From Alphaproteobacteria bacterium (lineage in GTDB: Bacteria; Pseudomonadota; Alphaproteobacteria; RF32; CAG-239): a stretch of DNA of 64,000 nt. The translations under genes and the position numbers were made by a program. The DNA lies in the NCBI GenBank assembly GCA_017467515.1, contig JAFUSU010000016.1:1-64000 (forward strand). The letters run 5' to 3'. Below the pieces are notes generated by a model. That model did no database searches, was not told the origin of the DNA, and worked only from the letters and a program-made list of their open reading frames with translations. Of this stretch, positions 36,920 through 60,943 are shown piece after piece (within the stretch, counting starts at the first letter, position 1; every line of letters starts with the position of its first letter).

Positions 36920-39667
36920 CTATTTAACTTTCACTATAATATGCTCTTGAGGCTCTCCACTGACACCCAAGGCCTGAGCCGGATCAAATTCCCATTCCTG
37001 TTGAGGTTCTTGAAGTAAAAAATCTCCTGAAACCGTCGTTGCCGGCGTTTCATAATGAATCGTACGAACGACAACGGGTTGTTGTGTTTCTATGGCCTGT
37101 TGAGTTGTTGTCGGGGCTGTTTGAACCGGTTGCTCTGTAGTCGGCTCCGGTTGAACTGCCTGCACTTGAGGTGCTGACTCAACAACCTGAGAAGGTGTCG
37201 GTTCGACGACAGGCGCTGTTTGAACCGATTGCTCAGTAGTCGGCTCCGGTTGAACTGCCTGCACTTGAGGTGCCGGCTCAACAACCTGAGAAGGTGTCGG
37301 TTCGACGACAGGCGCTGTTTGAACCGATTGCTCAGTAGTCAGCTCCGGTTGAACTGCCTGCACTTGGGGTGCCGGCTCAACAACCTGAGAAGGTGTCGGT
37401 TCGACGACAGGCGCTGTTTGAACCGGTTGCTCAGTAGTCGGCTCCGGTTGAACTGCCTGCACTTGGGGTGCCGGCTCAACAACCTGAGAAGGTGTCGGTT
37501 CGACGACAGGCGCTGTTTGAACCGGTTGCTCAGTAGTCAGCTCCGGTTGAACTGCCTGCACTTGGGGTGCCGGCTCAACAACCTGAGAAGGTGTTTGTGT
37601 AGCCGCTTTCTTATCATCCGCTTTGGTTTCCGAGGCTCTTTCCAAAGGAACATCATCAATTTTTATATTTTCAACAGCTTCTAGCGTTTTAGCAAAAGCA
37701 TTTTCGTTATCACCTTCAGTGGAATTGTCATTATTCAAGACTTTAGCTGCTTCGTCAGAAAGAATATCGCCGATATTAACAGATTTTTCTTCCTGATTAT
37801 CGTTTTTTTGAACACCGAATAAAGGTTGATGCTGAACCTTCCATTCCTCCATCTCTTTAGCATAAAACTTCGCGGCATTATTGATATCACTTTGCGTTAA
37901 AAACAACTCTTGTAATTGGTTTTTGATTGAACTTTGAGCACTTTCAGAATAAGAAACGCCCTTAAATTCGACACAGCGAGGAGATTTAAATAAATAATTT
38001 CTGATAATATCTTTGGCCTGACAAAATTCATTATAAATTCCAAAATGAGCCTGATGATCACGAATAGCTAAGAAAACTGTATTATGCTTCTTGAATTTAT
38101 CAATAAAACTAACAGACATCGCACCGCTTTCGCCTCCATTGCTAATGCCCTGAATAACAAAAGTAAGATTTTGTTCAGGATCAAGAGCTTGCAAATTTTG
38201 CATAAAATCATCCATTTGTTTCCAGAAACAAATCATTTGATTATTATAATTTTTCAAATTAACACCCGAGCCGGCAACCTTAAATTTAAAATTATCAGTC
38301 GTCCATTGTTGATATGGCTTTAACAGACACTGTTCATTAAAGACAAACAAATTATTAGGAAAATCAAGAGCTATAAAATATGCTGAGGCTGTATTTTTGT
38401 CATCGGCAACGTCTTGCAAAACTTGCTTAAGAACATCAAAAGAGTTGACAACATACATTTGTTCGTAAGGTAAGGCCATTTTTAATGCTGTACTTCTATC
38501 AATAAATATCTGGATAATATCCGCTATATCAGAACGCGTAAAAATGTCTAAGCTGTGCAACCATTGGTAAAATAAAATTTCGGCCCGAGTAGTATCATCG
38601 AACCCGAAAGCTGATATATCAAAAGGCTGACTGGAACGATTATAACAGCGATCAACATTAAACTGATTATTTTGCTTACAAATTTCAATTTTTTGGTTTT
38701 GATAGGCGTTAACCTTAAAATGAGCTTTTTGAAAAACATTGATAAGTTGATTGTTTTTCAAATAAATATCCGTTTTCTGAGCATTACGAAATTTCCACAG
38801 CTTTTCCAAACCGACATTATTCATAATATAATTTTGATAAGATTTTCCATCAAGTGCATTTAAACTTTCTACAAGATTAACCTCTCTCAAATCATTAGAA
38901 ATATAAGCATTCAGATAGATATTAAACCCGTATTTTTGCAAAAAACCAAGCATTATATTCTTATGTTTTTGAGAATTATCCGGATCTTTACCGTCATTAG
39001 AAGAAGGTAAAACATAAGAAGACATCAAATTAGGCATAAATAAGAAAATCGTCTTTTTATGATTATCCGGAAAATTGTTATTTTGGGAAACATAAATTTG
39101 ATTAATCATCGGTTGAGCAGGACTGTTAATCATTGTTGTTCCTGTCACTCCGGCTAACATCAAAAGAAGAATCCCCGAGATATAAGATAAAGTTTTATTT
39201 CCTGAGCGATTAAGAAATGAATAAGTTAGAACAAATATTAAAATAAGCAGGATCCAGTGGGAATAGCCTTCAATATAACTCAAAAGCATATTCATACCTA
39301 ACAATGAAGACAATAAAATAGATAAGTACTGAGATTTATCAATCTGTAAAAATTGGCTTAAAAATCCCCACGCCAAAGAACAAACGACCACAACAAAAAG
39401 AAATTTTTGAATACGTTTGAATAAGCAGGACAGCAACATTAATCCGAACGAAAACGCAAAAATGAAACCTATGACATACAAAACAGGCAAATTAAAATTA
39501 TCTTTTAAAACAAAAACACTTCCGGATCTTAAATAAAGAACAAAATCCAAAGAAATAAGGGCGCCCAAAATCAACGACAACAAAACTGTTCGAATGAAAG
39601 AAAAAACAAATTTATTTGATGATTTTTGATAACTTTCCGATTTAGAGTCTAAGACGATATCCTGCAT
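36920..39667 (-). CDS. Large membrane protein with periplasmic domain and 33-aa C-terminal repeats
   Basis: About 915 aa. Residues 20-180 hold five or six membrane helices, followed by a large extracytoplasmic region beginning KKTIFLFMPNLMSSYVLPSS; the placement resembles membrane sulfatase/phosphoethanolamine-transferase enzymes, but I cannot identify catalytic metal ligands. Residues about 690-860 are Pro/Glu/Gln/Val-rich tandem repeats of 33 aa (VVEPAPQVQAVQPE core) and the C-terminus is IIVKVK. I prefer ATG 39667 (AGGTGA upstream) over TTG 39697. It is the first gene of the operon with the peptide transporter; role unknown. Confidence 0.65.
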   Translation of the reverse strand: MQDIVLDSKSESYQKSSNKFVFSFIRTVLLSLILGALISLDFVLYLRSGSVFVLKDNFNLPVLYVIGFIFAFSFGLMLLSCLFKRIQKFLFVVVVCSLAWGFLSQFLQIDKSQYLSILLSSLLGMNMLLSYIEGYSHWILLILIFVLTYSFLNRSGNKTLSYISGILLLMLAGVTGTTMINSPAQPMINQIYVSQNNNFPDNHKKTIFLFMPNLMSSYVLPSSNDGKDPDNSQKHKNIMLGFLQKYGFNIYLNAYISNDLREVNLVESLNALDGKSYQNYIMNNVGLEKLWKFRNAQKTDIYLKNNQLINVFQKAHFKVNAYQNQKIEICKQNNQFNVDRCYNRSSQPFDISAFGFDDTTRAEILFYQWLHSLDIFTRSDIADIIQIFIDRSTALKMALPYEQMYVVNSFDVLKQVLQDVADDKNTASAYFIALDFPNNLFVFNEQCLLKPYQQWTTDNFKFKVAGSGVNLKNYNNQMICFWKQMDDFMQNLQALDPEQNLTFVIQGISNGGESGAMSVSFIDKFKKHNTVFLAIRDHQAHFGIYNEFCQAKDIIRNYLFKSPRCVEFKGVSYSESAQSSIKNQLQELFLTQSDINNAAKFYAKEMEEWKVQHQPLFGVQKNDNQEEKSVNIGDILSDEAAKVLNNDNSTEGDNENAFAKTLEAVENIKIDDVPLERASETKADDKKAATQTPSQVVEPAPQVQAVQPELTTEQPVQTAPVVEPTPSQVVEPAPQVQAVQPEPTTEQPVQTAPVVEPTPSQVVEPAPQVQAVQPELTTEQSVQTAPVVEPTPSQVVEPAPQVQAVQPEPTTEQSVQTAPVVEPTPSQVVESAPQVQAVQPEPTTEQPVQTAPTTTQQAIETQQPVVVRTIHYETPATTVSGDFLLQEPQQEWEFDPAQALGVSGEPQEHIIVKVK
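37096..37590 (-). repeat. 99-bp in-frame tandem repeats, about 4.8 copies
   Basis: The unit of 99 bases (33 codons) repeats nearly perfectly; for example GGTGTCGGTTCGACGACAGG starts at 37194 and again at 37293. Copies differ by single substitutions (Pro/Leu, Pro/Ser), which suggests recent expansion. It encodes a flexible Pro-rich region, possibly spanning the periplasm. Confidence 0.9.
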
Positions 39668-44417: not shown

Positions 44418-44517
44418 AAAAATATTTTTTAAATTAATAAATCCATAAAAATAAATTCTATTGCTTTAATATACTTGCATGTATAATTTTGTCAAGTTTT
44501 CTAAACGTAAATCTATC

Positions 44518-44545
44518 TTGCAAAATATAATTAAATAAGTATAAT
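44518..44545 (+). promoter_or_regulatory. Predicted promoter of the tmRNA gene
   Basis: TTGCAA, 16-base spacer, perfect TATAAT. Predicted start near 44552, at the 5' edge of the acceptor piece. Confidence 0.7.
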
Positions 44546-44551
44546 CTCTAC

Positions 44552-44990
44552 TGCTGTTTACAGCTATAACACTAGAGGCGGTATGAAATAGGCTTTTCAG
44601 ACCCGGGGGCAGTACCCGGCATCTCCACCACTTTTTATTGGAGTTTAAAAGTCTGGAGTTTAAGCTGAGTGCTAGGAATTAGCTGTTTTTACGCAGGGAG
44701 TGTACTAGCGGTACATGACCAAGTAAAAACGAAAATGACGACGCAATCAGTTAAAATACAGACTTTCTTATGGGGATGAAACAGGATTGATGGGAAGTAA
44801 TAAAGATACTATGCTGTGTTCGGTGAGATACCACCGTTATCGGTTCAACTTAAAATGAATGCTAACGATAATAACGTAGCACCAGTTGCTTTGGCTGCTT
44901 AAGGCTTAAAGTAACGAACTTAAATTCTTAAAACTTTGGTTAGTTTTAAGTGGGGGAGAAGCCACCTAGCAACAGAACGGCTTACTTTTT
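44552..44990 (+). ncRNA. ssrA: Transfer-messenger RNA, circularly permuted two-piece form
   Basis: The order is inverted relative to one-piece tmRNA, as in alphaproteobacteria. First comes the acceptor piece ending CCCGGCATCTCCACCA (CCA at 44628-44630), then a spacer of about 140 bases that is removed, then the coding piece beginning GGGGATG (44772-44778), which pairs with CATCTCC of the acceptor end. The tag frame 44861-44902 encodes ANDNNVAPVALAA and a TAA stop; the ALAA end is a ClpXP degron. The 3' end is an AAGCC/GGCTT stem with T6 near 44990. It rescues stalled ribosomes and tags the nascent chain. sspB follows. Confidence 0.95.
44631..44771 (+). repeat. Precursor-only spacer of tmRNA carrying a palindromic element
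   Basis: AAAGTCTG (44648-44655) pairs with CAGACTTT (44759-44766), enclosing the spacer. Inside are the hairpin GCTAGGAATTAGC and a core at 44685-44730: GTTTTTAC ... GTAAAAAC around CAGGGAG, TGTAC-TAGCG-GTACA and TGACCAA. The same core with changed but still complementary stems occurs at 55444-55488, and the tail 44736-44760 recurs at 42806-42830. Confidence 0.6.
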
Positions 44991-54244: not shown

Positions 54245-55072
54245 TTAATCAGCAACCATTACATTACGACGTCCGGCTAAAGAAATTTCAATAAATGCTA
54301 ATTGTTCCATAACCATTTCATTATTTTTATAAAGTTCTTTAGCTTTTTGAACACGGGTTTCAAAGTTATCTTCCTTACCCTTGAAGATATACATAAAGGC
54401 ACGACTGATAGCTTTAATAACATCAGGTTCATAGCCGCTGCGACGCAGACCAACCAGATTCAAACCGCGTAATTTACCGCGTTCACCTGTAACAATAGCA
54501 AACGGAATGACATCCCGATCAACACCGGCTAATCCACCAATCATCGCTTTTCGTCCGATACGACAGAACTGGTGAACGGCACAGTTCCCGCCTAAGATAG
54601 CCCCATCACCGATACGAACATGTCCACCGATAACGGCATTATTGGTCATAATAACATTATTACCGACAACACAGTCATGAGCGACGTGAGAGTTAATCAT
54701 AAACATTCCATCATCACCGACATAAGTTACCATTTTTTCAGGTTCAATTCCCGGTAACGGAGATTGTCCTTTCGGGGTACCGCAGTGCATCGTCACATTT
54801 TCTCTGATAACATTGCGTTTACCGATAACTAATCTGGCATCAGGCTGAAATTCATTACCGTGATCTTGAGGACCTCCGCCTAAAACAGCCCCCGGAAAAA
54901 CAACTGTCCCCTCACCTATCGTGGTATTTCCTAAAACAGTTACTCTTGGCAATAAACGAACATTTTCTCCGATTTTTGCTCCGGCACTGACATAGCACAT
55001 TGCGCCGATTTCGGCACTATTTGCAATTTGTGCACCTTTTTCAATAACGGCAGTCGGATGAATATTAGTCAT
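54245..55072 (-). CDS. lpxA: UDP-N-acetylglucosamine acyltransferase
   Basis: 275 aa, slightly longer than E. coli LpxA (262). First step of lipid A synthesis: transfer of a 3-hydroxyacyl chain to UDP-GlcNAc. The left-handed beta-helix is plain (AQIANSAEIGAMCYVSAGAK), the catalytic-type His lies in NSHVAHDCVVGNN (H132), and the C-terminal helical part is complete. fabZ and lpxD lie upstream on the same strand; lpxI/lpxB do not follow. Confidence 0.95.
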   Translation of the reverse strand: MTNIHPTAVIEKGAQIANSAEIGAMCYVSAGAKIGENVRLLPRVTVLGNTTIGEGTVVFPGAVLGGGPQDHGNEFQPDARLVIGKRNVIRENVTMHCGTPKGQSPLPGIEPEKMVTYVGDDGMFMINSHVAHDCVVGNNVIMTNNAVIGGHVRIGDGAILGGNCAVHQFCRIGRKAMIGGLAGVDRDVIPFAIVTGERGKLRGLNLVGLRRSGYEPDVIKAISRAFMYIFKGKEDNFETRVQKAKELYKNNEMVMEQLAFIEISLAGRRNVMVAD

Positions 55073-55525
55073 TATATAGTCCTTTCTTAAGATTAACAGA
55101 TGTATTGACTTTATTATCTCTCCCCAACAAAGGCAATCAACTTTTTATGACAAATTATTTCAGGGGATAAGTTATAAAAAAAATACCGTTGAACATATAA
55201 GTTCAACGGTATTTTTTAAAATCCGAAATTATCCCTGATAAAGGAATCCTTATCGTGTAATCCATTTTTTCTTCCCACTTGTATCGCTCAACGTCAATGC
55301 GATCATTGGCATTGAGATACGATGAGAATTTGATGGTAAAAATCGAGCAACTCTGAGAAACCCTGCACTAATAGCCTAAAGAGCCTCCTCTTCCTTAGCC
55401 GCTTAAAAATGCGATATTTGCGGCTAGTAGTAAGGATTTAGAGGAGTTGCGAAGGGCGCGTACATAGACGTACGTAACCAAGCAACTCTGAGAAACCCTG
55501 CACTAATAGCCCAAAGAGCGCATTT
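55073..55525. repeat. fabZ-lpxA spacer with terminator-like hairpin, direct repeats and palindromic element
   Basis: 453 bases without a gene. A symmetric hairpin at 55170-55214 (TACCGTTGAAC/GTTCAACGGTA, with A and T runs) can terminate in both directions. A 39-base sequence at 55346-55384 recurs at 55481-55519 with one difference. Between them CTCCTCT-TCCTTA-GCCGC pairs with GCGGC-TAAGGA-AGAGGAG, and 55444-55488 is the palindromic core shared with the tmRNA spacer (GAGTTGC/GCAACTC outside, CGTAC/GTACG inside). The cluster upstream and lpxA downstream are thus separated by structured DNA. Confidence 0.65.
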
Positions 55526-55966
55526 TTACATAATCATTGCGGTAAATTCCGCTTCCGACACAACCTGCCCATCAACAAAACTTTGTCCTTTGAAAACAAA
55601 GATATTGCGACGCTCTTTAATTTTTTCAACGTGCATTTTCAGCTGATCACCGGGCTTAACCGGTTTACGGAATTTAACACCGTCAATTGACATAAACAGA
55701 ACATTGCGTTTTTGATTTTCATAATCTTCATTGGCAGAAACAACAACCGCACCTGCTGTTTGCGCCATAGCTTCAATTTGTAAAACACCGGGCATAACCG
55801 GATTTCCGGGGAAATGTCCCTGAAAAAATTCCTCATTCATTGTCACATTCTTCGTTCCAATTCCTTTTTCTCCCGGAATTTCAACTTCCAAACGATCTAC
55901 CAGCAAAAAAGGATAGCGGTGCGGCAACATTTTCATAATTTCTTCAATATGATATACTTTTGACAT
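55526..55966 (-). CDS. fabZ: 3-hydroxyacyl-ACP dehydratase FabZ
   Basis: 146 aa, standard hot-dog fold. MLPHRYPFLLVDRLE, the catalytic His in QGHFPGNPVMPGVLQ and the Glu in QIEAMAQTAG are visible. It dehydrates 3-hydroxyacyl-ACP in fatty acid elongation and competes with LpxA/LpxD for that substrate, which explains the clustering. Starts 23 bases after lpxD. Confidence 0.96.
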   Translation of the reverse strand: MSKVYHIEEIMKMLPHRYPFLLVDRLEVEIPGEKGIGTKNVTMNEEFFQGHFPGNPVMPGVLQIEAMAQTAGAVVVSANEDYENQKRNVLFMSIDGVKFRKPVKPGDQLKMHVEKIKERRNIFVFKGQSFVDGQVVSEAEFTAMIM

Positions 55967-59806: not shown

Positions 59807-60943
59807 TTAAACGAACCAACGATGTATTAAATGAACAATATCATTCCACGTGGCAAAAACCATTAATAGTATTAATAAACCAAAACCAATTTTAAATAAA
59901 GTCTCTTTTATACGGCTGTTTATTTCTCTGCCGGTAATAATCTCCAACAGAAAGATAACAACGTGACCGCCATCTAAGACCGGAATTGGGAAAAGGTTAA
60001 TTAACCCTAAATTGATGGACAATAATGCTGAAAACATTATCAAATCCAACCAACCGTATTTTTTCGTAATATCTCCGGACATCTCGGCAATACGTATAAT
60101 ACCACCCAACTCTTTACTGCTGCGACGCCCGCTTATCATCTGACCGACACCGCGTAACGTTGTCACGGTAATATCCCATGTTTGTACAAAAGCTTCTTTA
60201 ACGGCTGTCGGAAAACTCATTTTCTGATGCTCCAACTCAATCTTATTAAGAGATTTAATTCCTAACATTCTTTGCTTAACCGTTGTTTCACCGTCAGAGG
60301 AATAATCAATAGTCGTTAAAGGAAAGGTCAGATTGATTTTTTCACCATTCCGCAGTAATGTCATCGTAATCATATTACTGTCATCAACTAAAGCAACTTC
60401 TTTACCGACCTGATCAAAAGAGGATATTTGATGTCCATTAATAACGATAATTCGGTCATTTTCCTGAATACCGGCAAGTTGTGCGGCACTTTCCTCAATT
60501 ACAGATCCGACGACCGGAGGATAAATTATTTTTCCCAAACCGGTAAAAACAACAGCAAAAACGACAATAGCGAAAAAATAATTAGCTAACGGTCCGGCTA
60601 ACACAATTGCTAATTTTTTAAAGGGATTTTGAAAAATAAATGCCTTTTTCTTTTCTTCATCAGATAAAGTATTAACGGCATCATCAACGCCGGCAGATGC
60701 CCCATCGGCATCACCCAAAAATTGACAATATCCGCCTAAAGGAATAGCCGACAATTTCCACTCCGTACCGGCTTTGTCTTTTTTACTCCATAACGTCCGC
60801 CCAAAACCGATAGAAAAAGTATCAACCTGAACACCACATAAACGAGCAATTATAAAATGCCCGAACTCATGTACAAAAACCAATACCCCTAATAAAGCAA
60901 CAAAAGGGACAACATAATATACTGCGTTAACAATCCATTCCAT
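59807..60943 (-). CDS. rseP: Site-2 intramembrane metalloprotease RseP
   Basis: 378 aa. Zinc-binding HEFGH at residues 25-29 in the first helix, a PDZ domain (about 125-210, with QENDRIIVINGHQISSFD) and the second metal-site segment LGLINLFPIPVLDGGH. It cleaves membrane anti-sigma factors and signal peptides. It follows cdsA by 11 bases; dxr, often between them, is absent. Confidence 0.95.
   Translation of the reverse strand: MEWIVNAVYYVVPFVALLGVLVFVHEFGHFIIARLCGVQVDTFSIGFGRTLWSKKDKAGTEWKLSAIPLGGYCQFLGDADGASAGVDDAVNTLSDEEKKKAFIFQNPFKKLAIVLAGPLANYFFAIVVFAVVFTGLGKIIYPPVVGSVIEESAAQLAGIQENDRIIVINGHQISSFDQVGKEVALVDDSNMITMTLLRNGEKINLTFPLTTIDYSSDGETTVKQRMLGIKSLNKIELEHQKMSFPTAVKEAFVQTWDITVTTLRGVGQMISGRRSSKELGGIIRIAEMSGDITKKYGWLDLIMFSALLSINLGLINLFPIPVLDGGHVVIFLLEIITGREINSRIKETLFKIGFGLLILLMVFATWNDIVHLIHRWFV

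Follow-up and report, generated by a model that had tools for sequence, protein, structure and literature searches.

The 64,000-nt stretch of DNA analyzed here (hereafter, the window) carries two similar palindromic cores, one in the precursor loop of a tmRNA gene and one in the spacer between fabZ and lpxA, and raises the question of what these sequences are and how they came to lie in such different places. The positions originally predicted for both cores are exact (Table 1); they are the only two matches to YGTAC-N-GTACR in the window, and each folds with its own arms. These coordinates mark the inner third of each of two longer, rod-like elements. Beyond what had been predicted, the elements are rods of about 125 bp, oriented with respect to replication and attached to stop codons.

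Element anatomy and covariation of the arms

Across copies, the unit is approximately 119–135 bp long and forms an imperfect palindrome with a single rod fold. In the consensus fold, an A/T-rich outer stem leads, through helices with small conserved bulges between them, to a core whose GG/CC and YGTAC/GTACR pairings enclose a short loop. Copies of type A end in TAAAA...TTTTA, though TA termini are less clear in other subtypes. A truncated half-unit beside the complete fabZ–lpxA copy is the remnant of a tandem pair. Some copies are chimeric, with a left arm of one subtype and a right arm of another (G000:C25:21230-21339, locus L004; G009:C52 near 59871-60132 and G009:C47 near 38983), which we read as recombination or template switching between elements. 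The window also contains a 99-bp tandem repeat (37113-37607; approximately 4.8 copies, 97% match), probably inside a coding region.

Table 1. Coordinates of the element copies and neighboring genes in the window
Feature	Positions	Strand	Description
Permuted alphaproteobacterial tmRNA gene	44514..44986	+	Rfam RF01849, 207.5 bits, E 1.3e-58
tmRNA processing loop	44631..44771	+	141 nt, acceptor end to coding piece; filled by one full element (R1 match 44655-44760, 70.6 bits, E 3.3e-16)
Inner hairpin, tmRNA copy	44685..44730	+	Core GGGAG-TGTAC...GTACA-TGACC; position as originally predicted
lpxA	54245..55072	-	Downstream of element 55404-55528 in the fabZ direction
Truncated second unit, right half	55341..55384	+	93% identical to 55476-55519, spacing 135
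Second full element	55404..55528	+	125 bp, between fabZ and lpxA; ends TAAAAATGCG / CGCATTTTTA; R1 match 55413-55520, 103.7 bits, E 9e-26
Inner hairpin, fabZ–lpxA copy	55444..55488	+	Core GGGCG-CGTAC...GTACG-TAACC; position as originally predicted
fabZ	55526..55966	-	TAA stop 55526-55528 forms the outer terminus of element 55404-55528

A chance palindrome is ruled out by reversed-core controls and arm swaps. A relaxed form of the core occurs 45 times in the genome from which the window derives (G000; 1.67 Mb in 36 contigs), and its reversed control 0 times; a strict form occurs dozens of times in several relatives, as compared with a single control match in all 56 genomes scanned. Swapping arms among 26 non-redundant copies weakened the pairing from -30.0 to -12.1 kcal/mol, and 0 of 20,000 permutations paired as well as the native combination. 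In an alignment of 16 copies, both sides have changed at 29 of 37 pairs; the covariation score was equalled by 0 of 500 shuffles, and 91% of cells in the element alignment are paired, versus 70% in shuffles. The self-complementary arms are thus altered in pairs, as the original prediction held. The same pattern is visible at individual sites: an element follows the same stop codon of an ABC transporter gene in G000 and in G005, a member of the same genus, the two copies sharing their loop and differing by coordinated changes in the arms, and an element follows the same pnp stop in G000 and in G027, of another genus.

At isolated stem mismatches, G-U outnumbers A-C by 92 to 53, as compared with 8 to 0 in tRNA acceptor stems. 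An earlier tally on 16 copies gave roughly equal numbers; given the larger count, the argument for DNA-level over RNA-level pairing is suggestive only. Identity with a known RNA family was rejected because no Rfam family fits the element: Rfam matches in the window were limited to the tmRNA and tRNAs, and eight element-bearing loci gave only sub-threshold matches, apart from one tRNA.

Distribution and kinship with ERIC

R1, a covariance model trained on 16 copies, all alphaproteobacterial, identified 35 copies in G000 at E up to 1e-3; copy number in this genome is about 35–45. Matches were found in 29 of the 31 genomes of the window's own family, the other two having none. Both the further copies within the genome and the conserved paired core among relatives are as the original prediction entails. 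Outside the family, R1 identified 14 copies in G032 (a sister family), 5 in G034, and 1 weak match in G051, with no matches in the remaining 19 genomes of the class. These relatives are gut Alphaproteobacteria (e.g., 'Azospirillum sp. CAG:239'), and copy number differs greatly among close relatives, including species within one genus, in a sample that consists mainly of draft assemblies from metagenomes. Identical copies lie at three contig ends in G000 (L117, L122, and G000:C35:55-72, on C12, C18, and C35), one of them behind tuf; repeats therefore probably break the assembly, and real copy numbers are likely higher. A search of plasmids with the window element returned no match. Similar GTAC cores are present at L077 (G042, family f12) and L078 (G052, family f22). 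These were excluded as the same element, being neither strand-coherent nor scored by R1, and perhaps represent a distant ERIC-type subtype.

The nearest known relatives are the ERIC repeats. The type A core exactly matches the ERIC central core GGAGCNTAC...GTANGTGACT, from which the window copies differ at 1–3 positions; the ERIC centre GGAGCTTAC...GTAAGTGACT is the type A core save one paired change. Among 299 genomes of the phylum, a degenerate ERIC-type core was confined to G000, five members of family f62, and a single occurrence in G134. Inner stems in one of the f62 genomes (G219, enterobacterial-type) alternate among CTTAC/GTAAG, CGTAC/GTACG, and CATAC/GTATG. Viral contigs searched with a subtype core returned rods of approximately 120 nt, of enterobacteria and others. 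R1 found one classic ERIC at E 1.9e-4, with most others scoring worse or returning nothing, and the G134 copy at E 6.9e-6; E-values given by R1 are rough.

ERIC has been described as a 127-bp sequence with TA ends that forms a long stem-loop and affects mRNA (PMC2229807). The element resembles ERIC (also IRU or RU-1, of enterobacteria and Vibrio) in its length of about 127 bp, its long imperfect palindrome and TA ends, and its many dispersed, intergenic copies. However, its arms and outer stems are of other sequence, its hosts are gut Alphaproteobacteria rather than enterobacteria or Vibrio, and it is also inserted inside tmRNA; docking at stop codons, described below, was not evident at 30 ERIC loci checked in G275, a closed enterobacterial chromosome. 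No whole-length similarity to ERIC was found, and because the core alone is shared we refer to the element as ERIC-type rather than as ERIC.

Other known systems share fewer of these properties. The original likening to Rickettsia palindromic elements (RPE) did not hold up: both are alphaproteobacterial palindromic repeats, and RPE occur in genes and RNA genes, but RPE are defined by in-frame insertion within coding genes, whereas the present copies sit on stop codons and not within genes. The YPAL (RU-2) repeats of Yersinia are likewise miniature hairpins and are described as landing just downstream of stop codons and across terminators. Their targets adjoin dyad symmetry, and at approximately 168 bp without TA ends (PMC2229807) they are unlike the 125-bp, TA-ended element; the printed RU-2 sequence also contains no ERIC-type core. 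IS200/IS605 elements and the REP/TnpA-REP system similarly combine hairpins with an orientation that follows replication. IS200/IS605 have hairpin ends and undergo single-strand transposition on the lagging-strand template, so that orientation tracks replication (PMC5371812), and REPs are 20–40 bp long (PMC3733652); however, these systems need a Y1 transposase, which is absent from G000 and several copy-rich relatives. Integron attC sites also form a folded single-stranded rod immediately behind stop codons, but the present copies are dispersed and form no cassette array.

Sites and orientation of the copies

The tmRNA loop is 5–18 nt long in most family members. It measures 141 nt in G000, 147 nt in G028, 232 nt in G020, 282 nt in G010, and 309 nt in G025, and is longest in G027 (444 nt), G011 (561 nt), and G012 (575 nt); the additional length is made up of one to about five rods in series, in several genera. 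Readable same-genus sisters of G000 have a short loop, as does G013, the sister of G028, which indicates repeated gains (or precise losses). One copy thus does lie in the removed part of tmRNA, where insertion was expected to be tolerated, and a processed RNA gene acts as a recurrent permissive insertion site. The element is nevertheless not a tmRNA-specific feature, as most copies sit elsewhere. ARAGORN did not report the window's tmRNA, likely because of the insertion, and element-filled loops may mislead tmRNA finders more generally. Two other enlarged loops, of 168 nt (L062, G032) and 96 nt (L061, G030), contain hairpins in which the core is not clearly visible, possibly other elements at the same permissive site. 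At L063 (G014), the tmRNA model matches two places approximately 0.9 kb apart, as if a larger insertion had split the gene.

The remaining sites are dominated by gene ends. In 55 of 60 cases (tandem copies counted separately), the gene lying 3' of the element is antisense to it, and the stop of that gene therefore abuts the element. Read in gene sense, the element often has the TAA itself as its first three bases, or else the coding frame runs into the outer stem and terminates there within a few codons; of the 88 stops at docking sites, 75 are TAA or TAG. A preference for TAA targets was rejected as the sole cause of docking, since, of the TAA sites that are either intergenic or themselves stop codons, just 7.7% are leading-strand stops. 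In G000, no open frame of at least 70 aa contains a copy. The docked genes are on the leading strand and often highly expressed; from their sequences we take them to include rplJ, rplA, the L25 gene, groEL, tuf, fusA, rpoA, infB, pnp, ftsH, aspS, and nusB. Filled and empty sites were compared at lpxA 3' ends, chosen because fabZ is often not found beside lpxA in relatives. The lpxA sites compared come from rather distant relatives; an element lies directly at the stop in at least six relatives and is absent in most others.

Orientation is uniform. On the 43 family contigs where two or more sites are separated by over 1 kb, copies share a strand in 83 of 83 independent comparisons among the sites listed. 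With the direction of replication inferred from skew, GC3 skew identifies the canonical element strand as the C-rich one throughout the tested contigs, save for an 11.5-kb contig that bears one atypical copy. This polarity is not accounted for by gene direction, given similar numbers of leading and lagging genes (350 and 318 of 668) and the distribution of elements among spacers. Elements occupy 17 of 251 spacers of the leading-leading type, against 10 of 92 for convergent, 2 of 89 for divergent, and 0 of 223 for lagging-lagging gene pairs. The tmRNA copies are informative here. Relative to their own gene, they have the sense opposite to that of copies behind stop codons (8 of 8 genomes read); in G000 and G028, where skew is readable, the tmRNA is lagging-strand coded and its copy follows the replication rule. 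Together these observations favor a polarity set by replication over one set by transcript function. In G028, the region C2:160-312 kb (L295-L302), around and beyond the GC-skew switch, has 0 copies, as compared with six in the contig's first 100 kb, which may reflect depletion toward one end of the replichore.

Competing explanations and a proposed mechanism

The rod might instead be a functional RNA at mRNA 3' ends—a terminator or stability hairpin—retained by selection, its polarity following the leading-strand bias of such genes. Its arms covary, the presumed hosts include ribosomal protein genes, tuf, fusA, rpoA, groEL, infB, and pnp, and the rod behind fabZ, read in gene sense, finishes with a short run of T at the position where relatives have an ordinary short terminator. 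An ERIC of Yersinia is known to alter mRNA stability (PMC2229807). However, this account leaves the lagging-lagging spacers empty for no evident reason when 318 of 668 genes are lagging, and copy number is very variable among close relatives. The tmRNA copies, opposite in sense yet conforming to the replication rule where skew is readable, and the weak preference for G-U over A-C likewise argue against it. We consider it unlikely; of the predicted alternatives of a selected folded RNA or a palindrome, the palindrome stands and selection on RNA is doubtful.

The perfect polarity, the location behind strongly transcribed genes, and the weak preference for G-U, which argues for pairing at the level of DNA, would also suit a polar DNA site (e.g., one bound by a topoisomerase or by a protein of replication or segregation) whose orientation is selected and which is copied by recombination. 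The patchy spread, unequal copy number within a genus, tandem arrays, and tmRNA insertion look like mobility instead, and two family genomes have no R1 match, making such a site quite improbable. An ordinary double-stranded MITE, moved by a DDE transposase into TA targets, has in its favor the TA...TA termini and the A+T richness of the outer stems, both also tabulated for ERIC (PMC2229807), and the excess of TAA and TAG at docking stops; polarity and docking would then arise from selection after insertion. Yet random insertion predicts some lagging-lagging copies and both orientations in convergent spacers, whereas 0 of 223 lagging-lagging spacers are filled and all comparisons among the sites listed are concordant, and we regard this as highly improbable.

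We think it reasonably likely, then, that the element is a divergent ERIC-type miniature insertion sequence whose insertion is tied to replication and whose copies are tolerated downstream of stop codons and within the tmRNA loop that is removed. It would be a non-autonomous rod hairpin of approximately 119–135 bp with a conserved core, spreading in gut Alphaproteobacteria; mobility by transposition is what the filled and empty sites suggest. The strand reading GGAGCGTAC...GTACGTGAC always has the polarity of the nascent lagging strand. This would be expected were a trans-acting factor to place the hairpin in the lagging-strand template while that is single-stranded, or to join it in within an Okazaki strand. 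This single-stranded route is proposed by analogy: insertion into lagging-strand DNA is established for IS608 and provides a precedent (PMC5371812). Copies would persist at TA-containing sites where they are least harmful or favored. One such class would be the stops of genes on the leading strand, often with high expression; there the rod would become a 3' UTR hairpin and possibly a terminator. The other would be the tmRNA loop discarded by processing. The stop-codon sites could reflect either tolerance or targeting of the 3' ends of strongly transcribed, co-directional genes. Effects on mRNA are plausible, and the element may later have taken on a role as 3' UTR or terminator, given the T run of the rod and its placement where relatives have the fabZ terminator.

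We know of no transposase for ERIC-type repeats. The Y1 transposase (PF01797) is absent from G000, G010, G025, and G028; the integron integrase (TIGR02249) exceeds the cut-off in 0 of 31 genomes; and reverse transcriptase is missing from copy-rich genomes or falls below the cut-off. As copy-rich genomes lack these genes or have them only below cut-off, all three were rejected as obligatory partners.

Since 1990-91, the mode of movement of ERIC-type repeats has been unclear. Relatives of ERIC that are numerous, patchy among sister species, and uniformly oriented make this question directly testable. It is possible, and we suggest it tentatively, that ERIC-type repeats at large are mobile hairpins coupled to the replication fork, with the lagging-strand rod inserted by host or other factors at co-directional 3' ends, and that the gut Alphaproteobacteria present the purest case. 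Polarity is absolute here but partial or absent in ERIC: classic ERIC orientations are mixed in G252 and G311, and polarity is therefore not universal for the kind. Of the 42 ERIC cores in G275, 30 are on the C-rich strand; by skew arm, the counts are 16 of 17 and 14 of 25. This polarity has the same sign as that in the gut Alphaproteobacteria, though it is weaker.
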